Origin: Clostridiales bacterium
Lineage (GTDB): Bacteria; Bacillota; Desulfitobacteriia; Desulfitobacteriales; Desulfitobacteriaceae
Assembly (NCBI GenBank): GCA_027357125.1
Contig: DAHVVW010000011.1
Location: 1-14,617 of the forward strand
Direction: 5' to 3'
DNA: 14,617 bases
Below, piece after piece: positions 1 through 14,277 of this stretch; the first letter of the stretch is position 1; every line of letters starts with the position of its first letter. A program made the position numbers and the translations under genes. The notes beneath the pieces were generated by a model. That model was not told the origin of the DNA. It saw nothing but the letters and a program-made list of their open reading frames with translations, and ran no database searches.

Positions 1-465
1 AAAGCTTTGGCCCGGATGATGATCCTTTTTCTCTTTATTGATCTCGGCCTGCAGGTCTATGAGTTTCTGATCGCCGCGTACAGTCTGGAGCCGGAAGAGA
101 CGCATACTTTATCCACCATGTTTACCAGTAGTTTTTCCTGGTCTTTCTGGGGAGTGCAGATATTCTTAGGGGCTGTCGTCCCCATCTACCTTGTGCTGAA
201 CAAACGGACGGGCGAATCCAGGCTGGGCCTGACCGCCGCCTGCGTGCTGGTTGTGCTGGGAATTATCGGTGTCCGGTTTAACATTGTGCTGCCGCCTCTA
301 ATCGTTCCGGTGTTGGAAGGGCTTCCTACAGGAAACTATTACCCGACCTTGGTCGAGATCGGGAGCAGTTTAGGGGTAATTGCACTGGGACTATTGCTCT
401 ATACTGTGGGTATGAAGCTGCTGCCGCTGGAGGAAGGTATAAAAGGGGTGAGAACACATGACTAA
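1..465 (+). CDS. NrfD/PsrC-type membrane quinol subunit, C-terminal part (5' end outside window)
   Basis: This is the C-terminal part of a polytopic membrane protein that carries electrons between the quinone pool and an iron-sulfur subunit. The reading frame is open to the first base, so the gene begins upstream and the first in-window ATG or TTG is not the true start. About 154 codons are visible, with roughly four hydrophobic segments separated by short charged loops. The segment containing GIIGVRFNIVLPP lines up with VGVIAMRVNFVIGG in the complete NrfD-type protein at 8323-9507, which supports the family call. Its last eight bases (ATGACTAA) overlap the start of the molybdopterin oxidoreductase, indicating translational coupling. 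The order NrfD then catalytic subunit is that of ttrBCA and srdBCA operons, so an iron-sulfur subunit is expected just upstream, outside the window (inference). Confidence 0.85.
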   Translation, partial: KALARMMILFLFIDLGLQVYEFLIAAYSLEPEETHTLSTMFTSSFSWSFWGVQIFLGAVVPIYLVLNKRTGESRLGLTAACVLVVLGIIGVRFNIVLPPLIVPVLEGLPTGNYYPTLVEIGSSLGVIALGLLLYTVGMKLLPLEEGIKGVRTHD

Positions 466-3400
466 AAAACAAGAAAATAAAGCAAAAATCAGCCGTCGTA
501 ATTTCATGAAAGGTGCGGGCGTTATCGGGGCATCAGCATTTGCTGCTCCCTTGTTTATGGATCCGCTGCAACAGCTAACAGGCAATGTCTGGGAAGATGA
601 CCCCCATGGCACCGCTTCTTTCTCTGAGAACTATGATGCGAGCAAGGTTATCTACAGCACCTGTGAACAATGCAACACCCATTGTACAATCAAAACCGTG
701 CTGACGCCTGCTGAAAAAGGAAAGCCCTATACCAGCCTGGTGCGCAAAATTGCCGGCAATCCTTACAGCCCATTGACCACCCAACCTTTTGGCGGACTTG
801 ATTATACGACTCCCATTGCTAAGGCTGCCCAGGGAAAAGACACCCTGGCTTTGGAAGGACGGGGGTATCGCGGGGGCAGAACCTGTTTGAAAGGCCAGGC
901 CGGAATTCAAACCGTTTATGATGCTTTTCGTGTGCGTACCCCCCTTAAGCGAGTGGGGCCGCGTGGAAGTGAGAAGTGGCAGAGCATTTCCTGGGAACAG
1001 GCTATTAAGGAAATCGTGAACGGCAGTCCGGATTTGGGCACTCCCGGCCTGCAATCCATCTGGGCCTTTGCTCCCAAGGAAAAAGTGATGGCTGACTGGG
1101 AAAAAGTGAAAAAAGGGGAAATCCCTTTTGCAGAGTTTGACAAGAAGTATAATGACGTGCTCATAGACACCAAGCACCCTGATTTCGGCCCGAAAGCCAA
1201 TCAGATTGCCTGCCTGGGCGGGAACCGCCGGGATTTTATGCGCGACCGCATTTGGTTCCAGGGGTTGGGAAGCATTAATTTCGATGATCACGGCGGCGCC
1301 TGCGGAGCGAGCGGGGTTATCGGGAATGTCCGTTCCTTTCAGGCGAAGAAGCCAAAAAAACGTCTTTATGCTGATTTGAATCATGCCGAGTTTGTCATCG
1401 TTTGGGGTACGAATCCCCTGGTGGCAAATCGCGGTCCCACCTGGCTGGCTCCGCTGTTGAGCAATGCTTTGGCTAGGGGCATGAAAATGGCGGTCGTAGA
1501 TACCAGGATGAGCAGAAGCGCGGAAAAGGCGGCGCTCTGGGTACCTGTCAAGCCTGGAACGGATGCGGCTTTGGCTCTGGGTATGGGACGCTGGATTGTG
1601 GAAAACAAGCGCTATGATGAGCGATACTTGAAAAATCCCAACAAGAAGGCTGCTGAGGCGGACGGAGAAGCGACCTGGAGTGATGCCGCTTATCTGGTGG
1701 TGGTGTCTGATGAGAAACGACCGAAGCTGAGGGCGGAACAGCTTGGTATCGGGAGTAAGGAACAATTTGTGGTACTGGAAAACGGACAGCCGGTTGCCCA
1801 CGACCAAGCCGGCGCTGCGGATTTGGAAGTTGATACGGAGATTAACGGAGTGCGCCTCAAGTCGGTGTTTACCTTGTATAAAGAGAGGGTAATGGAACAC
1901 ACCTTTAAAGAGTACGCGGAGATTGCCGGTATCTCTGAGCAGCAGATCGTGGACCTGGCCCAAGAGTTTACTGCCCATGGCAAACGCTCAGCCATTATGG
2001 CTTACCGGGGTGTGGGCATGCACGCCAACGGGTATTATACGGCCCGGGCCATCAATATGTTGAATCACCTGATTGGCAACCATGATTGGAAGGGCGGCAG
2101 CATTACAACCGGAGCCACCTACCCTGACTTGAAAGGACGTTATGATTTAACTGGGGTACCGGGAGCCAACAAGGCGTGGGGCATTCCCGTCAGCCGTCGG
2201 CAATCTGAGTACGAGAAGAGCAGCCTATTCAAAAGAGATAACGGTTATCCGGCGCGGCGTCCCTGGTTTCCGGTGGGAGGGAATGCTTCGAGCGAAGTCA
2301 TTCCCAGCGCGGCTGACGGTTATCCGTATCCCTTGAAAGCTTTGTTTTTCTACCGCATCTCCCCTGTGTTGACTTTTCCGGCGGGAGAAATGATTCGGGA
2401 AATCCTTAAAGACCAAAACAAAATCCCGTTGGTGGTTGCTTCCGATATCGTGATTGGGGAAAGCTCGATGTATGCCGATTATATTTTGCCTGACCTGGCG
2501 TATTTGGAGCGGTGGGGAAGAAAGAGCATCACACCCAGTTTCCCCTTAAAGGTGAGCAATTTTATCCAGCCGGTTACGAGGGTTTATCCCGAAGCGCGCG
2601 ATATCCAGGATGTGTTCATCGAGATCCTGAAAAAAATGAATCTGCCGGGAGTCGGAGAGAAAGCTTTTGTTGACGGGAGTCCGCTCCACCGGGTTGAGGA
2701 TTTCTATTTGAAAATGGTGGCTAATATTGCTTTCGCCGAAAAACCTGTACCGGATGCCGGGAGTGAAGAACTGCAGCTGTTTGCTCAGGCCCGGCGTCAG
2801 GCCTTGGGCAGCTTCTTTGATGAAGAACAGTGGAAAAAAGCGGTCAAGCCGGAGGAATGGCCGAAAGTTGTGTATGTGCTCAACCGGGGGGGGAGATTTG
2901 AAGCTCCCGGCCAGGAATATGTGGGAGAGCACCTGAAGTATCGTCTTGACGGCCAGGCGCTCTTTTATGACGAGAAGGTAGCCTCAGTTAAGCACTCCTA
3001 TAGCGGGAACTATTTTGACGGACTGCCCAAGCTGGAACTGATCCGCTCCTATGACAGCAAGGAAATTGAACAGCCCCAGCCTCTGGCTTTGATCAGCTGG
3101 AAAGCCCGCAACATCGGAACCCATCGGGGTATCAGCAATGCCTGGCTGCGGGAAATTAAGGGAGAAAACTATCTTTGGCTGAATCCGCTTGATGCCCATA
3201 AGCGCGGCATCAATGACGGTGACCGTGTGAAAATCAGATCGAACAATTATGAAGTGTTCGGGCGGGTTATGGTCACGGAGGGTATTCGTCCGGGATGCGT
3301 GGGAAGCTCCTATAACTTTGGCCATTATGCCTATGGGAGTAAAGCGGTGCAGATCGATCAAGTTTGGACCACAGCCGTAACCGGGTACGGTCATACCCCG

Positions 3401-3577
3401 TTTGGCGTCAGTGAACCGATGAAAGAAAAAACCGGTTTTGCCAAAGGCAGAAACACCGGATTTTCCATAAATAATTTATTGGTGCTTGACCCGGTACTGA
3501 AAAACACTTCATTGCTCGACCAAGTGGCAGGCGGAGTTGCTTCCCTGGATACAAAAGTTGAGGTCGAGAAAGCCTAA
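458..3577 (+). CDS. Tat-exported molybdopterin oxidoreductase, catalytic subunit (Ttr/Psr/Srd-like), copy 1
   Basis: This is a catalytic subunit of the DMSO-reductase superfamily that uses bis-MGD molybdenum cofactor, probably outside the membrane, to reduce a terminal acceptor. The 1039-residue length is close to TtrA-like enzymes and longer than most PhsA/PsrA. A twin-arginine signal (SRRNFMK, residues 12-18, then a hydrophobic stretch) begins the protein. Cys69, Cys72, Cys76 and Cys143 form a C-x2-C-x3-C...C [4Fe-4S] motif. Cys282 in HGGACGAS is the probable molybdenum ligand. A C-terminal dinucleotide-binding domain occupies about residues 870-1000, with GHYAYGS near its end. The start is supported by AAGGGGTGA seven bases upstream and an 8-base overlap with the preceding NrfD gene. 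It is a clear but divergent paralogue of the protein at 3822-6968. Substrate is unknown: tetrathionate, thiosulfate, polysulfide, selenate or another oxyanion are all possible. Confidence 0.88.
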   Translation: MTKKQENKAKISRRNFMKGAGVIGASAFAAPLFMDPLQQLTGNVWEDDPHGTASFSENYDASKVIYSTCEQCNTHCTIKTVLTPAEKGKPYTSLVRKIAGNPYSPLTTQPFGGLDYTTPIAKAAQGKDTLALEGRGYRGGRTCLKGQAGIQTVYDAFRVRTPLKRVGPRGSEKWQSISWEQAIKEIVNGSPDLGTPGLQSIWAFAPKEKVMADWEKVKKGEIPFAEFDKKYNDVLIDTKHPDFGPKANQIACLGGNRRDFMRDRIWFQGLGSINFDDHGGACGASGVIGNVRSFQAKKPKKRLYADLNHAEFVIVWGTNPLVANRGPTWLAPLLSNALARGMKMAVVDTRMSRSAEKAALWVPVKPGTDAALALGMGRWIVENKRYDERYLKNPNKKAAEADGEATWSDAAYLVVVSDEKRPKLRAEQLGIGSKEQFVVLENGQPVAHDQAGAADLEVDTEINGVRLKSVFTLYKERVMEHTFKEYAEIAGISEQQIVDLAQEFTAHGKRSAIMAYRGVGMHANGYYTARAINMLNHLIGNHDWKGGSITTGATYPDLKGRYDLTGVPGANKAWGIPVSRRQSEYEKSSLFKRDNGYPARRPWFPVGGNASSEVIPSAADGYPYPLKALFFYRISPVLTFPAGEMIREILKDQNKIPLVVASDIVIGESSMYADYILPDLAYLERWGRKSITPSFPLKVSNFIQPVTRVYPEARDIQDVFIEILKKMNLPGVGEKAFVDGSPLHRVEDFYLKMVANIAFAEKPVPDAGSEELQLFAQARRQALGSFFDEEQWKKAVKPEEWPKVVYVLNRGGRFEAPGQEYVGEHLKYRLDGQALFYDEKVASVKHSYSGNYFDGLPKLELIRSYDSKEIEQPQPLALISWKARNIGTHRGISNAWLREIKGENYLWLNPLDAHKRGINDGDRVKIRSNNYEVFGRVMVTEGIRPGCVGSSYNFGHYAYGSKAVQIDQVWTTAVTGYGHTPFGVSEPMKEKTGFAKGRNTGFSINNLLVLDPVLKNTSLLDQVAGGVASLDTKVEVEKA

Positions 3578-3616
3578 GGGAAAGATCGCTTCAGCCAGAA
3601 AGGTGTACGCTGACAG

Positions 3617-3674
3617 AAAGTCACTGTATGCCTTTTTGTCATGTCCAATTAAGTGACATTTTGACAGTGACTGT
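3617..3674 (+). promoter_or_regulatory. Candidate enhancer (UAS): repeated ACAGT-N-ACTGT palindromes
   Basis: A perfect 11-base palindrome, ACAGTGACTGT, lies at 3664-3674. A second copy, AAAGTCACTGT at 3617-3627, matches the other strand of the same palindrome at 10 of 11 positions. A weaker version, TAAGTGACATT at 3650-3660, matches 7 of 11. Centres are at 3622, 3655 and 3669, which is about 123, 90 and 76 bases upstream of the predicted transcription start near 3745. Paired palindromes at this distance upstream of a -24/-12 promoter are typical binding sites for NtrC-family activators. The best candidate binder is the response regulator encoded at 12826-14277; that link is inference. Confidence 0.6.
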
Positions 3675-3694: not shown

Positions 3695-3718
3695 CACGAA
3701 GCAGAAGGGATCAGAGCT

Positions 3719-3734
3719 TGGCATTTATCTTGCA
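3719..3734 (+). promoter_or_regulatory. Sigma-54 (-24/-12) promoter for the second reductase operon
   Basis: The sequence TGGCATTTATCTTGCA matches the sigma-54 consensus TGGCAC-N5-TTGCW. GG is at 3720-3721 and GC at 3732-3733, separated by exactly ten bases, the spacing sigma-54 requires. Transcription should start near 3745, giving a leader of about 77 bases before the ATG at 3822. Palindromic sites upstream and a sigma-54-dependent activator gene in the same window support the call. A sigma-70-like alternative in the same place has poor spacing. Confidence 0.8.
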
Positions 3735-3749
3735 TAACTCAAAATTGCG

Positions 3750-3821: not shown

Positions 3822-6800
3822 ATGAACAGGCGCGATTTTGTTAAGTCAGTCACCGCTGTGGGGACAGTCACGGCGCTTGGTTTAGGGGTTGAGAAGCTGG
3901 TTCCGGCGGTTTTGGCGGATGAGGTGATCGCGAACCCCACACCTTATGACCATGAGGCCCTGCCCGTGGAAATGCGGATTGATCCTCAAAGCGGCAAGGT
4001 CGAATTAAATCCCGATATTGCCTTGCGCAGCAGCGTATGTTTAGGATGCTGGAGTAATTGCGGCAACCGGGTCAAGGTCGACAAAAAGACCGGGAAAATC
4101 CTGAGGGTTTTAGGGAATCCTTATCATCCCAGCAACGCTGAACCGCATCTGCCTTATACTACACCTTTAATGGAATCCTACAAATCTCTCGGACAGTTTA
4201 AAGAGATCGGGCACACCGGGCGGGCCACGGTTTGCCAGCGGGGCAATGCCGCCTTCCAAATGGTTTACGATCCCAACCGGATTCTGACCCCTTTGAAAAG
4301 GGCCGGCAAACGCGGGGAAGGAAAGTGGAAACCGATCACCTGGGAGCAGGCTGTGCAGGAGACTGTCGAAGGCGGAGAACTGTTCAAAGCGATCGGGGAA
4401 AATGCGATGATCGAGGGTTTGCGCCAAGTGCGCGATTTGAAGACCCCTCTCAACCCAGACCAGCCGGACTGGGGGCCGAAAGCCAACCAGTTGGTGTTTA
4501 TCGGGGGACGGGATGACGGACGGACTGAATTCGCCAACCGCTTCATCACCAAGTCTTTTGGCTCGCCCAACTTCTATGGCCATGGCGGAACCTGCGGTCT
4601 GAGCCGCCGCATCGCCTTTCTGGCCTTCCTGGACACCTGGGATAAAAAGCCCCACATGAAAGCGGACTACATGGAAGCAGAACTGGTAATGTTTTTCGGG
4701 AACGCACCGGGGCAAGCCGGGGCCCCGTTCCAGCCGATGGCCCGCAAATCGGCTCTGGCCCAGGCTAATAACGGGATGAAAGCGATTTTGGTCGATCCGG
4801 TTTTGCAGAACGGAGTATATAACTCTCCGGCAGCCGAGGAGTCGGCCTGGGTTCCGATCCGGCCGGGTTCGGACGGGGCCTTGGCTCTGGCTATGATGCG
4901 CTGGGCTTTCGAACAAAAAAAAATCAATGAAGGATATCTGTCGATTCCCAACAAGGCAGCGGCAGGGAAAAAGAAAAGTCCTTCCTGGAGCAACGCCGCT
5001 TATCTCGTGATTCAAGAGCCCGGGCATCCGGATTTCGGCAAATTCCTGCGCGCCGAACAAATCGGGCTGAAGACAGCGGCAGCACCGGCCAAGCCGGCGC
5101 CTGCTCCGGCAGGCTCTGCACCCGCTGCTCCCCCGGAGCCGAACTATGTGGTCATGGATAAGGCCAGCGGCAAGCCGTCACTTTATACAGACAGCGAAGA
5201 GGGAGTTATCCTCTATACCGGCAAAGTTAGCCTTAACGGTGCCGAGGTGATGGTCAAAACATCCCTGCAGATTCTGGCTGAAGAAGCCAACCGCTATACC
5301 ATTGAACAATACAGCGAAGCGACAGGGCTTCCCAAGGAACGCATTATTTCCTTAGCCAAAGAGTTTTTTAGCCATGGCACCAAGGCGGCCACTGATCACC
5401 ACGGGGGAGTGGCCATGCATACCAATGGTTTTTATGGCTCCTTGGCGGTTATCACCTTAAATGCCTTGGTTGGAAACATCAACCGCAAAGGGGGTTCCAC
5501 CAAGAGCGGAGGAGGATATCGGGGTGTGGACAAAGGCCCGCGTTACGATTTGCTGACATTCCCCGGCATGGTCAAGCCTAAGGGTTTCAGGCTCAGCCGC
5601 GAACTGCGGAAGTACGAAGACACTCCCGAGTATAAAATGAGAAAGGCCAAAGGGGAGAATCCTTATCCGGCCACTCTTCCCTGGAGCCCGCTGGCAGATT
5701 CCATGGTGGGGAATGTCCTTCCTTCGATGATGGCAGGGTATCCGTATACGGCAAAGATTCTCATGATGTGGATGACTAATCCTTTCTATACCACTCCCGG
5801 GCTTTTTCAAAAAGATGTTGAGGAGTACGTCAAAGACCCCAAAAACATTCCGCTCATCATCGCTGTTGATGTTCTGATGGGCGATTCAAGTATGTATGCG
5901 GATTATATTATTCCGGATACCACGTTCTATGAAAGCTGGGGTGTACCCACTGTTTGGAACCTGATTCTGACCAAGGTGAGCGGGGCCCGCCACCCGGTTA
6001 TCGATCCGCTCGTGCCCAAGACCAAGAGCGGGTTGCCGATGTCGTTCGAAGCTTACCTGATCGAAGTCGGCAAGCGCCTGAACCTGCCGGGTGTCGGAGA
6101 TAAAGGGATTCCCAATGCCAACGGTGAACCCACCGCGCTCAATTCGCGCGAGGACTTCTTCCTTAAAGCGATGGCCAACATCGCTTTCGATGAGAAAGCG
6201 GTTCCGGACATTTCCACTCAGGAACTCCAGCTTACCGCTTTGGGCGAGGAACTCAAGTACACTGCTGCGAGTCTGACTCCGGAAGAGTGGGCGAAAGTGA
6301 ATTATGTTTTAGCCAGAGGCGGACGCTTTGAAGAGTACGAGAAAAACTACGACGGGGATGCTTTGCACAACAAGTTCCCCAAGATAATCAACATTTACAA
6401 TGAGAAACTCGGTACCACCAGAAGCAGCGTGAGCGGAGAATATTTAACCGGCACCGCAGCCTGGCTGCCCCCGGCCCTGGCTGACGGCCGTACAATCGAC
6501 CAGGTTTATCCGGACAACCAATGGCCCTTCCTGATTGTTTCCTACAAGCCGCGTTACCGCACCGGCGGCTATTTGTCTAATATTCCTCTCCTTCAGGACA
6601 TGGCAAAAACCAATTATATAGAAATAAATCTCGCGGATGCGGAAAAACTGGGGCTGGCCGACGGGGAGCAGGTGAAACTGGTTACCCCGACCGGGGAAGC
6701 CACGGGTACGATCAAAGTGCGGCGCGGGGTGCGCCAGGGAACAATTGCCATCGAGTACGGGTTTGGGCACTGGGGTGCCGGAGCCCGGAGTTATCAGGTG

Positions 6801-6968
6801 GGGGACAAAAACATTCCCGCTGATCCTGAACTTGGGTCTGGAGTGCTTCTGAATCTTATCACCCTGCGCGATCCCAGTTTGAAAGCCAAGCACCCCTTGT
6901 ATGACTTGGTGGGGGGATCGACTGACCGCAATACAACGAAGGCCAGACTGGAAAAAGTGAGTAAATAA
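3822..6968 (+). CDS. Tat-exported molybdopterin oxidoreductase, catalytic subunit (Ttr/Psr/Srd-like), copy 2
   Basis: This is the catalytic subunit of a complete respiratory molybdoenzyme operon; it should reduce a terminal acceptor outside the membrane using bis-MGD. The 1048-residue protein starts with a twin-arginine signal (NRRDFVK, residues 2-8) and a likely cleavage after VLA near residue 32. Cys73, Cys76, Cys80 and Cys138 form the [4Fe-4S] motif. Cys258 in HGGTCGLS is the probable molybdenum ligand. The dinucleotide-binding domain covers about residues 900-1015. The start has AAAGGAG nine bases upstream. Compared with copy 1 it carries an extra loop of about 20 residues rich in Ala and Pro around residues 418-440. 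Shared stretches with copy 1 include WGPKANQL versus FGPKANQI and MANIAFDEK versus VANIAFAEK, so the two are paralogues. Expression is probably driven by the sigma-54 promoter at 3719-3734. The substrate is not identifiable from sequence. Confidence 0.88.
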   Translation: MNRRDFVKSVTAVGTVTALGLGVEKLVPAVLADEVIANPTPYDHEALPVEMRIDPQSGKVELNPDIALRSSVCLGCWSNCGNRVKVDKKTGKILRVLGNPYHPSNAEPHLPYTTPLMESYKSLGQFKEIGHTGRATVCQRGNAAFQMVYDPNRILTPLKRAGKRGEGKWKPITWEQAVQETVEGGELFKAIGENAMIEGLRQVRDLKTPLNPDQPDWGPKANQLVFIGGRDDGRTEFANRFITKSFGSPNFYGHGGTCGLSRRIAFLAFLDTWDKKPHMKADYMEAELVMFFGNAPGQAGAPFQPMARKSALAQANNGMKAILVDPVLQNGVYNSPAAEESAWVPIRPGSDGALALAMMRWAFEQKKINEGYLSIPNKAAAGKKKSPSWSNAAYLVIQEPGHPDFGKFLRAEQIGLKTAAAPAKPAPAPAGSAPAAPPEPNYVVMDKASGKPSLYTDSEEGVILYTGKVSLNGAEVMVKTSLQILAEEANRYTIEQYSEATGLPKERIISLAKEFFSHGTKAATDHHGGVAMHTNGFYGSLAVITLNALVGNINRKGGSTKSGGGYRGVDKGPRYDLLTFPGMVKPKGFRLSRELRKYEDTPEYKMRKAKGENPYPATLPWSPLADSMVGNVLPSMMAGYPYTAKILMMWMTNPFYTTPGLFQKDVEEYVKDPKNIPLIIAVDVLMGDSSMYADYIIPDTTFYESWGVPTVWNLILTKVSGARHPVIDPLVPKTKSGLPMSFEAYLIEVGKRLNLPGVGDKGIPNANGEPTALNSREDFFLKAMANIAFDEKAVPDISTQELQLTALGEELKYTAASLTPEEWAKVNYVLARGGRFEEYEKNYDGDALHNKFPKIINIYNEKLGTTRSSVSGEYLTGTAAWLPPALADGRTIDQVYPDNQWPFLIVSYKPRYRTGGYLSNIPLLQDMAKTNYIEINLADAEKLGLADGEQVKLVTPTGEATGTIKVRRGVRQGTIAIEYGFGHWGAGARSYQVGDKNIPADPELGSGVLLNLITLRDPSLKAKHPLYDLVGGSTDRNTTKARLEKVSK

Positions 6969-7010
6969 GCCGGTTGAATCCGGCAAAGTAAGAAAGAGAG
7001 GTGCAGTCTT

Positions 7011-7676
7011 ATGTCTGGAAAAGAAGGGATAGCATTAGAGCGGGCAGCGGCATTTGAGTTTTTAGCCGGTATCTTTTTAAAAGAACCGAGCGTTTCGATT
7101 ATGAATGAGGTAAAGATTTGGGCTAAAGAGGGGAAAGAGCCGGAAATGCTTCCCCTTCTGGAGAATATTGACCGAGAAGATCCCGATTTGACGGGATTAA
7201 CGCAAGAGTATTATGATCTCTTCTTTGTCCCGGTGTCAGGCCGCTTTGTGCCGCCCTTTGAGTCGGCTATCCGGGGGGCGGTGCGTCAGGACGGCGGAGC
7301 AACGAAGTTTGGCCCTTACTGGGGGGATACCACCGTTAAGTTGGCTGCCCTTTATGAACGAACTCAGTTTCATCCTGGACGCCTGGCGGTGTTCGAGCCT
7401 TTACGGCAGTTGAATTTACCTGATCACGTAGGACTGGAACTCTCCTTTATGGCCTATCTCTGCCGTCTGGAAGCTCAGCAGCTTGAGCGCGGTCTGTCCG
7501 CGAAGCTAATTCGGAAAATCCAAACTGATTTTTTGCAGGAACATTTACGAGAATGGGTGGGGCTTTGGGTAAATGACTTAGAGAAAGTGCCGCAGTCCGG
7601 ATATTATCTGTACTTTGCCAGGCAGGCTCGCGACTTGTGCCAGGAAGAAACTCAAGTTTTGCTTAAACATGCCTAA
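7011..7676 (+). CDS. TorD/DmsD-family molybdoenzyme maturation chaperone
   Basis: This cytoplasmic chaperone of 221 residues is expected to bind the apo-catalytic subunit or its twin-arginine signal, hold it until molybdenum cofactor is inserted, and prevent early export. The family mark is the stretch YYDLFFVP followed by VPPFES (about residues 66-86), which matches the conserved LF-x-P...PP-x-ES core of TorD-like proteins; the rest is mostly helical. It sits 42 bases after the copy 2 catalytic gene with a GAGAGGTG ribosome site, and before the iron-sulfur subunit, so copy 2 is the obvious client. No chaperone gene is visible with copy 1, so it might serve both (inference). Confidence 0.85.
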   Translation: MSGKEGIALERAAAFEFLAGIFLKEPSVSIMNEVKIWAKEGKEPEMLPLLENIDREDPDLTGLTQEYYDLFFVPVSGRFVPPFESAIRGAVRQDGGATKFGPYWGDTTVKLAALYERTQFHPGRLAVFEPLRQLNLPDHVGLELSFMAYLCRLEAQQLERGLSAKLIRKIQTDFLQEHLREWVGLWVNDLEKVPQSGYYLYFARQARDLCQEETQVLLKHA

Positions 7677-7715
7677 ACAGTGACCTCAAGCCTGTCATTG
7701 AAAGGAGTGGTAAAA

Positions 7716-8330
7716 GTGGCCTCACAAACCAAACGCTATGCCATGGTCATCGACCTGCGCAAATGTGTAGGATGCAATGCCTGTACGGTATCCTGCAAGA
7801 TTGAAAACCAGGTGCCGGAAGGGGTATTCCGCACTTGGGTCAAAGAAATAGAAAAAGGAACCTATCCGCAAATTACCAGGTTCCGTCTGCCGCGGCTGTG
7901 CAACCATTGCGACAACGCGCCTTGTTTGGCAGCCTGTCCGGTTCAGGCGACTTACCGGGCTGAGGACGGAACCATTATGGTCGACTATGACCATTGCATC
8001 GGCTGCAAATATTGCATGGCAGCATGTCCGTATGACGCCCGCTTTATTAATCCCATCAGAAAGACCGCGGAAAAGTGTACGTTTTGCTATCACCGGGTTA
8101 AGGCCGGGCTCCTGCCCGCCTGTGTCACCACCTGTGTCGGAGGGGCGCGCATATTCGGCGATTTAAACGATCCTCAGAGCCTGGTGGCCAAGTTGGTGGC
8201 CAATAATCCGGTGCAGGTTTTAAAACCGGACATGAGCACCAAACCCATGGTCTTCTATATCGGGGCGGACCAGGATATTATGGGTGCGCGCTATGGCGAC
8301 CTGGAGAAAGGAGAAAGGAAGCATGGATAA
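7716..8330 (+). CDS. Four-cluster [4Fe-4S] ferredoxin subunit (PsrB/PhsB/DmsB type)
   Basis: This electron-transfer subunit connects the membrane quinol subunit to the catalytic subunit. With a GTG start at 7716 it has 204 residues and sixteen cysteines in four groups: 17/20/23/27, 62/65/70/74, 94/97/100/104 and 121/124/136/140, enough for four [4Fe-4S] clusters. The GTG at 7716 is chosen because AAAGGAG lies eight bases upstream; an earlier in-frame GTG at 7680 has no ribosome site and falls only three bases after the chaperone stop. There is no signal peptide or membrane segment, so export probably occurs bound to the Tat-signal-bearing catalytic subunit, as in other DMSO-reductase-type complexes. 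Its last eight bases (ATGGATAA) overlap the start of the NrfD gene. Confidence 0.92.
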   Translation: MASQTKRYAMVIDLRKCVGCNACTVSCKIENQVPEGVFRTWVKEIEKGTYPQITRFRLPRLCNHCDNAPCLAACPVQATYRAEDGTIMVDYDHCIGCKYCMAACPYDARFINPIRKTAEKCTFCYHRVKAGLLPACVTTCVGGARIFGDLNDPQSLVAKLVANNPVQVLKPDMSTKPMVFYIGADQDIMGARYGDLEKGERKHG

Positions 8331-9507
8331 TGTCACCTACCTTGCCAATGTGACCCATCCCGTGCAACTTGGCGTTTTAATTGCAATCTACTTTTTCTAC
8401 ACCGGACTGAGTGCGGGTTCTTTCGTTTTGTCCAGTCTGGGTACAGTTTTCGGGATTGAAAAATACAAACCGATTGCCAAAGCAGGGGTCATCATGGCTA
8501 TAGCTTTGCTCGCGATCGCTCCCCTCCATCTCATTGCTGACCTGGAACAGCCCGGACGCTTCTACACTCTCTTCTTCCGGTTGAACCCGACCTCGGCCAT
8601 TTCCTACGGAACCTTTCTCCTCACGCTTTATCCGCTTAACAGTATAATTTATCTGTGGTTTTTAATGCGCAAAGATTTTGCTGCCGGAGCAAATCAGGTG
8701 TCCGGTTTCCGGCAGAAGCTTTACCGCTTCTTAACGTTTGGCAAAACGGATCTTTCTCCGGAGGCTGTGGCTAAAGACGCCAAACGGGCTAAGCTGCTGG
8801 GGACCTTAGGAGTACCCCTGGCTTTGCTGGTACACGGCTATACCGGATTTATCCTGGCCAACATTCAGGCCCGGGCCCTGTGGCATACGGGGCTTATGCC
8901 CTTGATCTTCCTGATGTCGGCCATGGTATCCGGAACCGGTTTGCTGATTCTTGTCCTTTTGTTGAGCCAACGTTTCTTTTCTCCGGAGCGGAGTATTACT
9001 CCGGAACGCAAGAAGCTGATTCTCGATATTGCTCAGCTTATGCTTTGGTTTATTGTGGTCGATGCCAGCCTGATGGTGATAGACTTTATTGTGCTTTATT
9101 ATACGAATGCAGCCGGGCGCGCGGCGGCCGAACTCTTCCTGTACGGGAGCCACCGCACCATGTTCCTCGGTGTCGAAGCCGGTCTGGGTCTGTTCGTTCC
9201 TTTCCTCCTCCTGTTAATTCCACGCACCAAAGGCTCCCTGAGCTGGATTTCTTTAGCTTCGTTCCTAACATTGGTCGGGGTTATCGCCATGCGGGTTAAT
9301 TTTGTCATCGGCGGGCAACAGCTGCCTTTGACCGGGAACACTCTAAATCCCTATACGGCTGACCCCAGGCACCTCATGTTCATTGCTGTGTTTGCCCTGG
9401 CAGAACTGGCGATTCTCTACTTTGCCTTTCGCTTCCTGCCTGTCTTCGGCTTGCCCAAGACTCCGCCGGCTCCGGTAAATTATCAGGGACAGGTTGGAGC
9501 CAAGTAG
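8323..9507 (+). CDS. NrfD/PsrC-type membrane anchor and quinol-oxidising subunit
   Basis: This integral membrane subunit should oxidise quinol and pass electrons to the ferredoxin subunit. The 394-residue protein has about nine hydrophobic segments, starting near PVQLGVLIAIYFF and ending near LAELAILYFAFRFL, in line with NrfD-type proteins (eight to ten helices). The ATG at 8323 is preferred over an in-frame GTG at 8284 because it has GGAGAAAGG just upstream and makes an eight-base overlap (ATGGATAA) with the ferredoxin gene, the same coupling seen between the first NrfD and its catalytic gene at 458-465. It is the last gene of the operon and is followed by a strong terminator. No haem-binding motif was seen, so it resembles PsrC/NrfD rather than a cytochrome subunit. 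Confidence 0.88.
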   Translation: MDNVTYLANVTHPVQLGVLIAIYFFYTGLSAGSFVLSSLGTVFGIEKYKPIAKAGVIMAIALLAIAPLHLIADLEQPGRFYTLFFRLNPTSAISYGTFLLTLYPLNSIIYLWFLMRKDFAAGANQVSGFRQKLYRFLTFGKTDLSPEAVAKDAKRAKLLGTLGVPLALLVHGYTGFILANIQARALWHTGLMPLIFLMSAMVSGTGLLILVLLLSQRFFSPERSITPERKKLILDIAQLMLWFIVVDASLMVIDFIVLYYTNAAGRAAAELFLYGSHRTMFLGVEAGLGLFVPFLLLLIPRTKGSLSWISLASFLTLVGVIAMRVNFVIGGQQLPLTGNTLNPYTADPRHLMFIAVFALAELAILYFAFRFLPVFGLPKTPPAPVNYQGQVGAK

Positions 9508-9555: not shown

Positions 9556-9602
9556 AGGGAGAACAACCGGACAGGTGTCGGGGAGTTCTCCCTGGTCTTT
9601 TT
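9556..9602 (+). terminator. Strong intrinsic terminator of the second reductase operon
   Basis: The arms AGGGAGAAC (9556-9564) and GTTCTCCCT (9585-9593) are perfectly complementary over nine bases. Inside them CCGGAC and GTCGGG can pair with one mismatch around an AGGT loop. A T-run at 9598-9602 follows. It separates the reductase operon from the signalling operon. Confidence 0.85.
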
Positions 9603-9669: not shown

Positions 9670-10671
9670 TTGAACAAACGCCTGTGGATTTTGGGGATTG
9701 CGGCTTTCTTGCTTTTTCTGGTAGGAGCCTATCTTGTGACTGTTCCTGCGGCTAAGCCGCGGGTGGCGCATATAGGAATCCTGCTGGCCAATGATACCCG
9801 CCTGGCCAAAGTGGAGGGCTTGCAACAGGCCTTAAGCCGTCTGGGCTACCTGGACGGGCAGGATGTAACCTATCAGGTCTTGAATGCGCAAAACGATATT
9901 TCCCAATTGCCCGTGCTGGCCCGGCGTCTGGTTCAAAACAGGCATGATGTGCTGGTTGCGGCAGGGTACATTGAAGCTCAATCTTTAAAAGATATTACAG
10001 CCGCCGTGAAGAGGCCGGTTCCGGTGATCTTCATGGGCTCCCTTGCTCCGGCCGCAATCGGCCTGGTGCTGAATCCAACTCATCCGGAAGGAAATTTGAC
10101 CGGACTTAACAATTATCACCTTGAATTAACCCCCAAACGGCTGGAACTGCTCCATCGTTTGCTTCCTAACGTGCGACGTGTGGCAGTGCTGGGGGATCTG
10201 CGCGTGCCTTCCTTTGAACGGACCCAGGCAGGGATTCAGTCAGTGGCCAGGGAGTTTTCCCTGACTCTGAATTCTTTCACAGTCTCCAGCCCGGAAGATA
10301 TTGAAAGAGTGTTTCAGGAGATGGCGGCGGCTAAAGTGGAGGCCATTATGCTTCTTCCCGGATTTTTTCTGGAGACGAGCATGGAGCAAATTGTTGGGCG
10401 GGCTCTGCAGCAAAACCTTCCTGTTTTTGGAGTTTATCCGGGTGATATCAAATATGGCTGTTTGGCTTCTTATGGCACTTCTTACGAAGAGCAGGGGGCG
10501 CAATCGGCCCATCTCGTGAACAAAAGCCTGCGCGGGCAGGCCACGGGAGATATTCCGGTAGAAACTCCGGATAAAATTGTCTTGTCGGTCAATTTGCGCA
10601 TAGCCAACAAATTGGGAATTCATCCGGCAGCGGATGTGCTCAGCCTGGCGGATCAGGTAATCCAACCGTAG
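9670..10671 (+). CDS. ABC_sub_bind (TrpX-like) periplasmic substrate-binding protein, probably sensory
   Basis: This 333-residue protein belongs to the ABC transporter substrate-binding family typified by TrpX (Pfam ABC_sub_bind). Evidence is the opening HIGILLAND after the signal region, the GLQQALSRLGY-type segment, and the TGLNNYHLELTPKRLELLHR region followed by VRRVAVLGD. The N-terminus has a hydrophobic helix (about residues 4-25) but no lipobox cysteine, so it is either an uncleaved membrane anchor or a Sec signal rather than a lipoprotein. The start is TTG with GGGGGTGA six bases upstream. No permease or ATPase gene is adjacent; instead a histidine kinase follows almost immediately. 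This suggests it captures a ligand and presents it to the kinase, as AioX does for AioS (inference by analogy; AioX is from a different binding-protein family). The ligand is unknown. Confidence 0.8.
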   Translation: MNKRLWILGIAAFLLFLVGAYLVTVPAAKPRVAHIGILLANDTRLAKVEGLQQALSRLGYLDGQDVTYQVLNAQNDISQLPVLARRLVQNRHDVLVAAGYIEAQSLKDITAAVKRPVPVIFMGSLAPAAIGLVLNPTHPEGNLTGLNNYHLELTPKRLELLHRLLPNVRRVAVLGDLRVPSFERTQAGIQSVAREFSLTLNSFTVSSPEDIERVFQEMAAAKVEAIMLLPGFFLETSMEQIVGRALQQNLPVFGVYPGDIKYGCLASYGTSYEEQGAQSAHLVNKSLRGQATGDIPVETPDKIVLSVNLRIANKLGIHPAADVLSLADQVIQP

Positions 10672-10685
10672 GGAGGATGGAAAGT

Positions 10686-12857
10686 TTGAAAGTCGGCCCG
10701 GTTCCTTGGTGGATGCGGATCAAAGGGCGTGTTCTGGTTTTTGGCATTATGATGTCTATTTTTCCTTTGCTTTTTCTCGGCCTGGCCAGTTTTAACACCA
10801 CCCGGCTGCACCTGGAAGGGAGTATTCAGGAGCAGAACTTTGAGCGGGCCAACGCCCTCGCCCAAGAGATTGGGGATTTTGTGCAGAATATGGCGGACAG
10901 CCTGACCCATGTCGCTTCAACCAGTGCGCCCATGCTTGTGGGGAAGGATCAGGTGGCCCGGGCCTCGATTTTGGGAACACTTCTCCGGGAAGAACCGTAT
11001 CTGGAGAAAATAACGGCAGTAGACAGGAATTGGCGTGTTCTCGGCCAGGTTGCCAGAAGGGAAGTGATTTTGCCCGGTTCTGTACCTGTCAGGCTGGAGA
11101 AGGTTGAGTTTACGGATGAGCGTTCCTTTGCTGTCAGCAATGTGTTTTTCACGGGGGATGGACGCCCGGAGTTTTATTTGACGGTGCCGATTCAGGATCC
11201 GTATACCCGTCAGGTTATCGGCTATTTACAAGCGGAGACCGATCTGAAGGGAATGGTCACCAAGATAGCCAACTTGCGCATCGGCCAGGCCGGTTATGTT
11301 TTTCTGACGGATGAGAAAGGGAATTTAATTAGTCATACAGACTTTAGCCATGTCCTGCGCCAGGAAAATGTGCGCCAGAATCCGTCCGTACGCGGTTTTT
11401 TGACAGGGGAAAGTCCGACCCATCGAGGACGGGAATACGACAACTCTGACGGTATCAGGGTGATAGGTCTGTTTGCCCCGGTGGGCAACCCAAATTGGGG
11501 TGTGTTTATTGAACAACCGATTCGGGAGGCTTATGAGCCTATTTCACAGTTTGCCTTCAAACAGGTGGGGATTGTGCTTTTCATGGGGATTCTGGTTACG
11601 ATTCTGAGCATTGTCTTTGGTTTAAAACTCACCCGTCCGATTGAAAACCTGGAAGGGGAAGTCAGGCACATTATTTCCACCGGTAATCCGGAAGCTACCG
11701 TTCCCCAGCAAACCCGGGATGAAATCGGGCGTTTGGTGCAATCCTTCAATCAGTTGCTCCGTATGCTGCACGAGCAAGGCAAGAGCCTCAAAGCTGAAAA
11801 GGAGTTATTGACAACGGTTGTTAACGGAATTGGCGCAGGAATGGCGCTTTTAGACGCAGAGAAGCGCATCATCTGGTGGAATTCTATTTTCGCGGACTGG
11901 TTTGGCTCTGACAGCTTGCAGAAGGTTCCCTGTGATAAAGTGTTGACAGGAGAAGGCATCGATTGTTTTTTCCTGGAAAACGGTAGGGTGGTTGCGCTTG
12001 AGGTCAACGGGCTTCGCCGTTATATCCGTCAAATGTACTATGGGCTGGTGCCGGAGAATCAGGAAAATGCAGCTTATTTGCTGCTCCTTGAGGATGTTAC
12101 GCAGCAAGTGGAACTGGAAGTACGCATGATCGAGACGGACAAGATGGCTGCTGTGGGGTTGCTTGCCTCTGGCGTAGCCCATGAAATAAATAATCCCCTG
12201 GCTGTTATCTCGGCTCACAGCGAGGAACTGTCTGACCGTTTGCGTGAAGACACTCCAACAGTTGCTGAAGTCAGAGAGGTACTGGGCATTATTTCAGGTC
12301 AAGTTCTACGGTGCAAACAGATTACGGGCCAACTCCTGCAGTTTGCCCGCAAAGGCAAACAAGGGCGGGATCTGGTGGATATCGGAGGAGCGACCGCCCA
12401 AACGACAACCTTGCTCCGGCACAGAGCCAAGCAAAAGCAAGTCGGAATTGAGATCGACTTGCCGGAAGGGCTAGTGGTTTTAGGCAATGAGAATGAATGG
12501 CAGCAGGTAGTTTTAAATGTTTTAACCAATGCCATCGATGCATCTCCTGAGGGAGAAACTGTGCAAGTCCGGGCTTGGCGTGAGGAAACTGCCATTCAGG
12601 TTGAAGTGGAAGATCATGGCTGCGGGATTCCGTCCAGCCAGATTAAAAAAGTTTTTGATCCTTTCTTTACCACAAAACCACCAGGACAAGGAACAGGGCT
12701 GGGTTTGTTTGTGAGTTACGGAATTGTCCAGAAAATGAAGGGACAGTTAGCCTTAGCAAGTGTGGAAGGCCAGGGTACCAAGGTGAGGATTACTTTACCA
12801 TTCCAAGAGGTAGGAGAGGAAAGACATGAAGCACCGGCAGCAAGTACTGATTCTTGA
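10686..12857 (+). CDS. Membrane histidine kinase, Cache-HAMP-PAS-HisKA-HATPase
   Basis: This sensor kinase of 723 residues should autophosphorylate and pass phosphate to the regulator encoded next. Domains in order: membrane helix about 16-36; extracytoplasmic Cache-type sensor up to about 290; second helix about 294-316; HAMP about 317-365; PAS about 375-480; HisKA with phosphorylatable His499 in VAHEINNPL; HATPase with the N-box near 601-615, DHGCGIP from 643 and GQGTGLG at 667-673. The TTG at 10686 is chosen because GGAGG at 10672-10676 lies nine bases away; an ATG at 10677 directly abuts that site and is less likely. The ribosome site follows the binding-protein stop codon directly. The PAS domain has two cysteines, Cys416 and Cys427, that could be redox or metal sensitive (inference). 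The 3' end overlaps the regulator gene by 32 bases. Confidence 0.9.
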   Translation: MKVGPVPWWMRIKGRVLVFGIMMSIFPLLFLGLASFNTTRLHLEGSIQEQNFERANALAQEIGDFVQNMADSLTHVASTSAPMLVGKDQVARASILGTLLREEPYLEKITAVDRNWRVLGQVARREVILPGSVPVRLEKVEFTDERSFAVSNVFFTGDGRPEFYLTVPIQDPYTRQVIGYLQAETDLKGMVTKIANLRIGQAGYVFLTDEKGNLISHTDFSHVLRQENVRQNPSVRGFLTGESPTHRGREYDNSDGIRVIGLFAPVGNPNWGVFIEQPIREAYEPISQFAFKQVGIVLFMGILVTILSIVFGLKLTRPIENLEGEVRHIISTGNPEATVPQQTRDEIGRLVQSFNQLLRMLHEQGKSLKAEKELLTTVVNGIGAGMALLDAEKRIIWWNSIFADWFGSDSLQKVPCDKVLTGEGIDCFFLENGRVVALEVNGLRRYIRQMYYGLVPENQENAAYLLLLEDVTQQVELEVRMIETDKMAAVGLLASGVAHEINNPLAVISAHSEELSDRLREDTPTVAEVREVLGIISGQVLRCKQITGQLLQFARKGKQGRDLVDIGGATAQTTTLLRHRAKQKQVGIEIDLPEGLVVLGNENEWQQVVLNVLTNAIDASPEGETVQVRAWREETAIQVEVEDHGCGIPSSQIKKVFDPFFTTKPPGQGTGLGLFVSYGIVQKMKGQLALASVEGQGTKVRITLPFQEVGEERHEAPAASTDS

Positions 12858-14277
12858 TGATGAGGAAGCTTTGCGTTCGATTATTGCTAAGCGTTTGCAG
12901 CGGAAAAAGTATGATGTATTTGAAGCTGGGACCGCTCAAGAAGGGCTGTCCTTGCTGCGTGACAACCTTCTGGATGCTGTACTTTTAGACTTGCGCTTGC
13001 CGGACGGGGATGGTCTTGGGGTATTGCATGAACTGAAACAGCTCCAGCCGGATATTCAAGTCATCATGCTGACTGGACACGGAACCATGGAGTCTGCCAT
13101 TGAAGCGATGAAGGCCGGGGCTTTTGATTACCTGACCAAACCCTGTAATTTGTCCGAGTTGGAAATTACTTTGGAGAAAGCATTGGAGCAACGCAAGCTT
13201 CTTCTGGAAAACACCGGCCTGCGCCAGGTTGTACATCGCCAAATCCCGGAATTGAGAATTGTGGGGGAAAGTGCCATCTTAAAGGCTCTCCTGGAAATGA
13301 CCAGGAAGGTAGCTCAAAGTGACACAGCGGTCCTGATTCAAGGAGAGAGCGGAGTCGGCAAAGAACTGATTGCCCGGGCTCTGCATAGCTGGAGCCCGAG
13401 GGAAGCCCAGGCCTATGTTCCGGTAAATGCCGGGGCTATACCTGAAGCCCTGATGGAAAGCGAATTGTTCGGGCATGAAAAAGGAGCGTTTACCGGAGCA
13501 GGGGGGCAAAAGATCGGATTGGTGGAGATGGCAGACCGCGGCACTCTTTTCTTGGATGAAATCGGGGAGATGCATTTGGGACTGCAGGTAAAGCTGCTTC
13601 GCTTTTTGGAGGCCGGAGAATTCCGCCGTGTCGGGGATACCAGGCTGCGGCGCGTCGATGTGCGGATTGTCACAGCGACGAACCGGGATTTGCAAAAAGA
13701 GGTTAAAACGGGACGGTTTCGCCAGGATCTGTACTACCGTTTAAACGGTTTAACGCTGGTGGTGCCGCCCTTGCGTGAACGCCGGGAAGATATTATCCCC
13801 CTTGCCGAATACTTTCTTCAACGCTTGGACAAAACGGATGTGGCCGGACAAAGCTGCGTACTGGCGCAGGAAACGAAAGAGGAATTGCTGAAGTATGATT
13901 TTCCGGGTAATGTGCGCGAACTTGCCCACCTGATTGAGCGGGGTCGGCTGCTGGCGGCGGATAGGCTGATTTTCCCGTACGACATCTGGCTGCAAACCAG
14001 TCATTCCCTGCAAGAAGCGGGGCAAACGAAACGACTCGCTCCGGCAGAAAAAAGGGGATTGACACACACAGGTTCTGAAAGTTTCTGGGCAAGAGAAGGT
14101 ACTGGACGGTGGCCGGATGACGGTCATTATCCTGCCTTGGAAGAGGTTGAGCGCGGCTATGTCTTAGCCACGTTAAGGAAAGTTCAGGGCAACCGGGCTC
14201 AAGCGGCGAAACTGCTAGGCATCAGCGTGCGCAATCTCTATCGTAAAATTGAAGCCTATGGAGTGAAAGAGCCCTAA
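12826..14277 (+). CDS. NtrC-family sigma-54-dependent response regulator
   Basis: This 483-residue transcription activator has three parts. The receiver contains the acidic pocket Asp11/Asp12, phospho-acceptor Asp55, Thr83 and Lys105. The AAA+ domain has Walker A GESGVGKE (173-180), the sigma-54 contact loop GAFTGA (220-225) and Walker B around Asp244-Glu245. A Fis-type helix-turn-helix lies at about residues 438-480. All hallmark residues for phosphorylation, ATP hydrolysis and sigma-54 contact are present, so it should be functional. The ATG has GGAGAGG six bases upstream and overlaps the kinase gene by 32 bases, marking them as a cognate pair. The sigma-54 promoter and palindromes at 3617-3734 are the most plausible target in the window (inference). 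Confidence 0.93.
   Translation: MKHRQQVLILDDEEALRSIIAKRLQRKKYDVFEAGTAQEGLSLLRDNLLDAVLLDLRLPDGDGLGVLHELKQLQPDIQVIMLTGHGTMESAIEAMKAGAFDYLTKPCNLSELEITLEKALEQRKLLLENTGLRQVVHRQIPELRIVGESAILKALLEMTRKVAQSDTAVLIQGESGVGKELIARALHSWSPREAQAYVPVNAGAIPEALMESELFGHEKGAFTGAGGQKIGLVEMADRGTLFLDEIGEMHLGLQVKLLRFLEAGEFRRVGDTRLRRVDVRIVTATNRDLQKEVKTGRFRQDLYYRLNGLTLVVPPLRERREDIIPLAEYFLQRLDKTDVAGQSCVLAQETKEELLKYDFPGNVRELAHLIERGRLLAADRLIFPYDIWLQTSHSLQEAGQTKRLAPAEKRGLTHTGSESFWAREGTGRWPDDGHYPALEEVERGYVLATLRKVQGNRAQAAKLLGISVRNLYRKIEAYGVKEP

Follow-up and report, generated by a model that had tools for sequence, protein, structure and literature searches.

What would a solute-binding protein report to its cell when its gene is followed by those of a histidine kinase and a sigma-54 activator, and not by those of a transporter? 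This question is raised by a 14,617-nucleotide (nt) stretch of DNA from a Clostridiales bacterium of the Desulfitobacteriaceae (assembly GCA_027357125.1, contig DAHVVW010000011.1), hereafter the window, in which three such genes, which we call the triad, stand downstream of a molybdoenzyme operon (Table 1). The original prediction for this DNA had likened them to AioX–AioS–AioR, which controls arsenite oxidase. Our analysis suggests that the triad is probably a three-component sensor of a sulfur oxyanion that drives the TtrA-type reductase operon beside it.

The triad and the operon beside it

Membership of the binding protein in PF04392 is indicated both by the profile, which it matches above the cut-off, and by the fold: the top four structures among the 50 matches listed in a fold search are TrpX/CD0873-like, and no phosphonate-binding Pfam family was matched up to an E value of 0.001. 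No lipobox was seen in the protein, and its predicted N-terminal helix (residues 3–24) is likely to be a membrane anchor. The sensor part of the kinase could be aligned through all 21 kinases compared, and the NCBIfam TtrS model matches its kinase part alone (residues 481–698, 89 bits against a cut-off of 750). The regulator bears the marks of an NtrC-type activator, with D55 and G220–A225 invariant in 23 of 23 regulators and a Fis-type HTH_8 domain, whose recognition helix reads ISVRNLYRK.

A 5-nt gap between binding protein and kinase and a 32-nt overlap between kinase and regulator indicate by layout that the three genes form one operon, and with the domains identified by Pfam this bears out the gene content that had been predicted. 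The triad does lie downstream of a molybdoenzyme operon with a sigma-54 promoter, as originally proposed. A terminator-like hairpin between the two suggests that the triad is a transcription unit of its own and not the tail of that operon. The binding protein had also been called an orphan, and it is one in the source assembly, which is 76% complete. Three ABC_sub_bind genes are present there: that of the window, one on contig C332 with a permease and an ATPase of its own behind it, and one that belongs to another complete triad, on contig C380. A permease and an ATPase for the window's protein were not found elsewhere in the assembly. A transporter protein with partners elsewhere was rejected, the one transporter set seen in this assembly (C332) having its own binding protein.

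For both molybdoenzymes in the window, TtrA is the best NCBIfam family by a wide margin, and both miss its cut-off of 1,750 (886 and 470.5 bits); the ArrA model gives 115.7 bits on 3822–6968, against a cut-off of 1,600. By sequence, both would therefore be relatives of TtrA, with identity as TtrA itself below the curated cut-off. Homologues of TtrA in D. hafniense were annotated earlier (PMC3306737). Among 15 matches in the window to TGGCAC-N5-TTGCW with up to 2 mismatches (8.05 expected), the promoter at 3718–3735 alone has 1 mismatch, and in none of 200 shuffles of its 350-nt region was so high a score reached.

Table 1. Features of the window and in-frame TGA codons at related loci
Feature	Position	Strand	Details
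C-terminal part of NrfD1, cut by contig end	1–465	+	same operon as TtrA1
TtrA1-like molybdoenzyme	458–3577	+	end of the operon after the C380 triad, judged from the P. ferrireducens and D. metallidurans loci
Activator-site candidate 1, TGACAGAAAGTCA	3611–3623	+	1 mismatch to TGACA-N3-TGTCA
Activator-site candidate 2, TGCCTTTTTGTCA	3629–3641	+	2 mismatches to TGACA-N3-TGTCA
Activator-site candidate 3, TGACATTTTGACA	3654–3666	+	1 mismatch to TGACA-N3-TGTCA
−24/−12 (sigma-54 type) promoter, TTGGCATTTATCTTGCAT	3718–3735	+	86 nt upstream of the ttrA2 start
TtrA-like molybdoenzyme catalytic subunit (TtrA2), inferred target	3822–6968	+	NCBIfam TtrA, 886 bits
TorD/NarJ-type chaperone	7011–7676	+	
TtrB-like iron–sulfur (Fe–S) subunit	7680–8330	+	4Fe–4S dicluster domains
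NrfD-type membrane subunit	8284–9507	+	
Terminator-like hairpin between reductase operon and triad	9577–9596	+	2 hairpins found, 0.6 expected
Sensor-type ABC_sub_bind (PF04392) binding protein, 333 residues	9670–10671	+	TTG start; Pfam 166.9 bits, cut-off 25.9
Histidine kinase, 726 residues	10677–12857	+	dCache_1, HAMP, weak PAS, HisKA (H502), HATPase_c
NtrC/AtoC-type sigma-54 activator, 483 residues	12826–14277	+	Response_reg (D55), Sigma54_activat (GAFTGA 220–225), HTH_8
TtrA-like gene with one in-frame TGA, beside type III triad	L051, 2115–5204	−	
TtrA-like gene with one in-frame TGA, beside type III triad	L053, 14296–17385	+	
TtrA-like gene with one in-frame TGA, beside type III triad	L124, 729–3914	−	

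A probable sensor clade within a transporter family

Related binding proteins were sought with a profile (A1) built from 20 triad binding proteins. In a search of 398 phylum genomes, the scores fell into two groups, at least 273 bits and at most 183 bits, and the high-scoring type occurs in at least 25 of the genomes among the matches listed (up to an E value of 1e-52). The same split was seen in an 82-genome search of the class, one fragment excepted. A search of Bacilli gave matches in 24 of 398 genomes, at 230–340 bits, under the scores of the phylum group; 20 Bacilli loci were taken from these, with G768, G679 and G715 left out and the context in G464 being that of L070. L200 lies on the same contig as L136 and was dropped from the count of composite sites described below, which leaves 67 unique triad loci.

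The gene order is strongly conserved. The gene directly after that of the binding protein encodes a kinase in all 47 observable cases among the first 48 loci and in 20 of 20 Bacilli loci (66 of 66 unique loci), and the regulator comes next in 41 of 43 cases in the first set (42 if L144 is counted, where regulator motifs appear beneath an opposite open reading frame) and in 20 of 20 Bacilli loci. Genes of the TtrA, TtrB or NrfD type adjoin the triad in 34 of 48 loci. The conserved co-occurrence that the original prediction had proposed as a check is thus borne out. The other 14 have contig ends (L133, L139, L141, L143, L145, L148), YeiH (L047–L050), TsdA (L070) or other neighbours (L135, L140, L144). 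No permease was found as the next gene in the sensor loci, where the kinase instead takes that place, whereas a permease stands beside the binding protein in 21 of 29 low-scoring loci. Judged from these sequences, the circuit is not a one-off but is spread over Bacillota.

The binding proteins of the triads also differ from those of transporters in sequence. A tree was built from 46 sensor rows and 28 rows of the transporter type (68 of the 74 differ), and in it one branch separates the two sets with 100/100 support, under a long-branch warning. All 28 transporter-type rows have D231, which none of the 46 sensor rows retains; E102 replaces the transport-type S102 in 46 of 46 sensor rows and is found in 0 of 28 transporter-type rows; and D176 is kept in all 46 sensor rows. 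This pattern suggests that the binding pocket is altered in the sensor clade relative to the transporter type. C264 occurs in 17 of 17 type I rows (the branch of the window), in 2 of 29 other sensor rows and in 4 of 28 transporter-type rows; by analogy with the AioX pocket, in which Cys106 contacts arsenite, sulfane sulfur in the ligand may react with this cysteine.

Individual loci depart from the common plan. At L066 (Desulfosporosinus metallidurans, 9992–11028), the type I binding-protein gene appears to be split into two frames, by sequencing error or decay, with kinase and regulator intact, and L038 holds a single 535-residue open reading frame with the start of a kinase and a regulator-like motif at its end. 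Type I triads stand at a formate-dehydrogenase-like operon (L041) and at a different dimethyl sulfoxide (DMSO)-family operon (L042) in G009, and type I is thus not tied to TtrA2 alone. The triad of L135 (13994–15965) lies at genes for a CRP-type regulator and an Fe–S/flavin mononucleotide (FMN)-binding membrane protein; it has a −24/−12 site, no TGACA operator and the helix SLRH, and perhaps answers to another signal.

Operator, promoter and probable target genes

Sites of the −24/−12 type were scored with weights that were not fitted to these data. At a threshold of 14.9, such a site precedes 23 of 30 reductase operons and 0 of 16 binding-protein genes (best score 14.2, at L134). On a second look, sites just under the threshold were found at L047–L050 and L130/L131, and one appears at L045 once the start is read further in. 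The operator TGACA-N3-TGTCA, which was first noticed by eye in a motif-free palindrome scan, itself noisy, sits upstream of the −24 box, usually in three copies in type I and two in type II. With up to 2 mismatches allowed, 19 of 21 reductase promoter regions contain it, where shuffled sequences predict 1.68, and the number of sites is 46 where 1.77 would be expected. Of 22 control regions before binding-protein genes, 1 contains it.

Requiring an operator (up to 1 mismatch) and a −24/−12 site together defines a composite site, which is found in 46 of 67 triad loci (1.17 megabases (Mb)) versus 0 of 31 transporter-type loci (0.16 Mb). It is present in 19 of 19 unique Bacilli loci, all of them fetched after the motif had been defined. 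The first gene behind the site is TtrB-like in 21 cases, TsdA in 11, TtrA2-like in 10 and S-layer-like in 1; the three sites with none in range are at L133 (contig end), L195 (tatA) and L140 (probably chance). A scan of 11 whole genomes gave 15 exact copies of the palindrome: 10 before triad reductase operons, 1 before tsdA, 2 before YeiH-type genes and 2 unexplained; none occurs in three of the 11, the source assembly among them. The site before tsdA in Aneurinibacillus is the sole one in 5.3 Mb, and the two unexplained sites, those of D. metallidurans, have no −24/−12 site and no fitting gene.

The operator goes with the recognition helix of the regulator. Of the 32 loci whose regulators carry SVRN, SLRN or SVRQ, 29 have at least one intergenic operator with no more than 1 mismatch (exceptions L052, L037 and L136); of the 4 with GLKT or GLRT, 1 has such a site, more than 6 kilobases from the triad. 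None was found with SLRH or SLRS regulators in the main helix comparison, and one Bacilli locus with SLRS (L196) has one operator; the helix pattern missed L068 and L202. The GLKT/GLRT loci (type III: L051, L053, L124, L055) have GTCA-N3-TGAC near the triad, a motif of weak specificity, for three of four other loci (L043, L126, L070) hold one each and the window none. Type III TtrA-like genes have an in-frame TGA at the position of the presumed metal-ligand cysteine of TtrA1 and TtrA2, followed at L051 by a hairpin of −9.6 kcal/mol (no shuffle control), and their products probably contain selenocysteine.

The Bacilli extend the range of targets. In the 20 loci, the triad stands before tsdA in 10, before TtrB–NrfD–TtrA1-type operons in 7 (L196, L199, L200, L202, L205, L211, L213), beside TtrA2-type operons in 2 (L197, L203) and before tatA in 1 (L195); with L070 of Aneurinibacillus, TsdA is associated with 11 triads. 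Two of these TsdA proteins match thiosulfate dehydrogenase 4wqc with 176.7 and 179.9 bits, and the remainder were identified by likeness to that of L070. In the alignment shown for one protein, both haem motifs and a further cysteine, presumably the haem ligand, are aligned. Of 12 loci examined, 7 have a frame resembling tatA downstream of the sigma-54 site (L195, L197, L199, L136, L202, L205, L211), the L195 frame matching Pfam TatA with 82.3 bits. Such a target fits, because TtrA-type enzymes need export by twin-arginine translocation (Tat). The idea that the sigma-54 site of L195 and L197 serves a TrpXYZ-like transporter was rejected, as tatA comes before the transporter; an Rfam scan of L195 5300–6400 gave no match. 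YeiH-family (PF03601) membrane proteins at L156, L159 and L047–L050, with −24/−12 sites, are a further type of operator target, and YeiH of Salmonella has a role in sulfite resistance (PMC12880088).

Taken together, the TsdA, YeiH and tatA targets indicate a sulfur oxyanion. The molybdoenzyme TtrA and the haem enzyme TsdA, which are not related to each other, act on one tetrathionate/thiosulfate couple, which TsdA enzymes interconvert (PMC6879331), and this shared couple suggests that the triad is a sulfur-oxyanion three-component system. The most economical reading is that tetrathionate or thiosulfate is the signal. We assume the same for the window because type I has the operator and the recognition helix in common with the branch that includes TsdA loci.

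The window makes up all of contig C22. Among the relatives found, the nearest with a name is Paradesulfitobacterium ferrireducens PLL0, with 91% identity in the binding protein. Another TtrA-type operon, distinct from the one beside the triad, ends within the window (1–3577), and the C380 triad is followed by TtrB- and NrfD-like genes. The end of C380 and the start of the window map side by side on one P. ferrireducens contig, and relatives place the two triads at opposite ends of what would be one locus, in the order triad 2, TtrB1, NrfD1, TtrA1, sigma-54 promoter, TtrA2, TorD, TtrB2, NrfD2, triad 1. In D. metallidurans, the arrangement around triad 2 is found on L068 and that around triad 1 on L066, two different contigs. 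Both the window start (1–7) and the C380 end read AAAGCTT, which puts the assembly break at a HindIII-like site within nrfD1. A fragment of a ThiC/BzaB-like radical S-adenosylmethionine gene lies at the other contig end (14349–14615, minus strand), and an Rfam scan of the window gave no match.

Proposed circuit, alternatives and known counterparts

Gene order, domains, catalytic motifs, promoter, operator and conservation together suggest the following circuit. Anchored on the outside of the membrane by its N-terminal helix, the binding protein would bind an extracellular sulfur oxyanion, most likely tetrathionate and next thiosulfate, and would dock on the dCache domain of the kinase. Phosphate would then pass from H502 of the kinase to D55 of the regulator, which would bind the TGACA-N3-TGTCA sites at 3611–3666 and, through its GAFTGA motif, drive sigma-54 RNA polymerase at 3718–3735, so that the reductase operon (3822–9507) would be made when its substrate is present. 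On balance, and with more reserve, we also favour the existence of an undescribed, Bacillota-wide family of tetrathionate/thiosulfate three-component systems, with one operator and sigma-54 promoters, that controls TtrA-type enzymes as well as TsdA, tatA and YeiH-type exporters.

Several observations weigh against this interpretation. The operator was first seen in the 21 promoter regions that were then scored, and that count alone is not independent; the reversed palindrome was counted 4 times in those 11 genomes. Several of the Bacilli loci are closely related to one another, and the transporter-type controls are short (0.16 against 1.17 Mb), with five loci repeated and a permease visible in 21 of 29 only. 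L140 is counted among the 46 composite sites with no gene behind its site, 21 of the 67 loci have no composite site (contig ends, type III or real absence), and L066 and L132, among the 29 helix-matched loci, owe their counted site to a position away from the promoter. Some triads have other neighbours: formate-dehydrogenase-like (L041), other DMSO-family (L042), CRP with Fe–S/FMN genes (L135) and, judged by eye, coenzyme A transferase (L140). Finally, rpoN was not found in the source assembly (76% complete), in P. ferrireducens (90%) or in G018. It was found in 18 of 20 carrier genomes. The gene whiA, a neighbour of rpoN elsewhere, is missing from the source assembly and P. ferrireducens and ends a contig in G018, and the absences of rpoN are therefore probably assembly gaps; a true absence from the genus was rejected on the same whiA gap.

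The same circuit could serve another signal (arsenate, selenate, polysulfide or sulfite), the sulfur-oxyanion reading being wrong for the type I branch. The TtrA matches lie far under the curated cut-offs, so that the reductase may have another substrate, and the PhsA and ArrA models also match weakly. Moreover, type I is a separate clade in the tree, its triads occur at the operons of L041 and L042, none of the type I triads in the loci examined has TsdA as a neighbour, and the TGA-containing TtrA relatives next to type III triads indicate that targets diversify. We nevertheless regard another signal as unlikely, given that TtrA is the clear best match of both window enzymes, that type II triads alternate between TtrA1-type operons and TsdA under the same operator, that operator and recognition helix are common to types I and II, and that the operator also stands before genes of YeiH-type exporters where the genome has a type I triad.

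It is a little less probable again that the dCache domain of the kinase senses the signal alone, with the binding protein as a bystander or modulator. Such domains often bind small molecules directly, and the sensor part aligns throughout the kinases compared; yet a bystander would not need the clade-specific E102 and the strict D176. The presence of the binding protein in all 67 loci is no evidence here, because the search was seeded from it and kinases without it were uncounted. An ordinary amino-acid sensor or orphan transporter protein that stands near a reductase by chance is very improbable: the clade split, the altered pocket, the lack of an adjoining permease, the shared operator and the empty transporter-type loci all argue against it. 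A chance neighbourhood was rejected on the kinase being next in all observable loci and on the composite-site counts.

How, then, does the proposed sulfur-oxyanion triad relate to known systems? LuxP–LuxQ and TorT–TorS offer a precedent for the proposed docking of a type I periplasmic binding protein on a membrane kinase, unlike the triad in their protein families, hybrid kinases and signals. The TrpX/CD0873-type transport proteins share family and fold with the binding protein; here, by contrast, no permease or ATPase lies alongside, the clade is separate, and D231 and S102 are replaced. TtrS–TtrR and ThsS–ThsR resemble the triad in the presumed signal and the adjoining TtrA-type reductase; TtrR, though, is a response regulator of a different type, FixJ/LuxR. 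Their PhnD-like sensor sits within the kinase and their operators are FixJ-like (PMC5408782), whereas here a separate binding protein is joined by a dCache kinase and a regulator of Response_reg, Sigma54_activat and HTH_8 domains. AioX–AioS–AioR and ArrX–ArrS–ArrR, the latter reported in Firmicutes too, are alike in having a separate binding protein, a kinase and an AtoC-family regulator in one cluster beside a molybdoenzyme; they differ in that AioX and ArrX align with PhnD and, for AioX, other oxyanion binders (PMC5908839). In the triads, the binding protein belongs to PF04392, a different family with a TrpX-like fold, a TtrA-like enzyme or TsdA stands in the place of arsenite oxidase or ArrA, and the operator is their own. 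The analogy first drawn, with an unrelated binding-protein family, thus holds, and the second triad, the operator, the spread over Bacillota and the TsdA, YeiH and tatA targets go beyond it.

The TtrSR and ThsSR systems of Gram-negative bacteria are being built into biosensors of gut inflammation (PMC5408782). No Gram-positive counterpart of tetrathionate/thiosulfate sensors was found among the titles and abstract openings listed in searches of open-access literature, and the triad appears to be an alternative, in Gram-positive bacteria, to the sensors known so far. The target list of the regulator and the ligand of the binding protein would name the substrate respired by the TtrA-like enzymes of Bacillota, and the triad would represent an amino-acid-transporter family turned signal receptor, with a recognizable residue signature.

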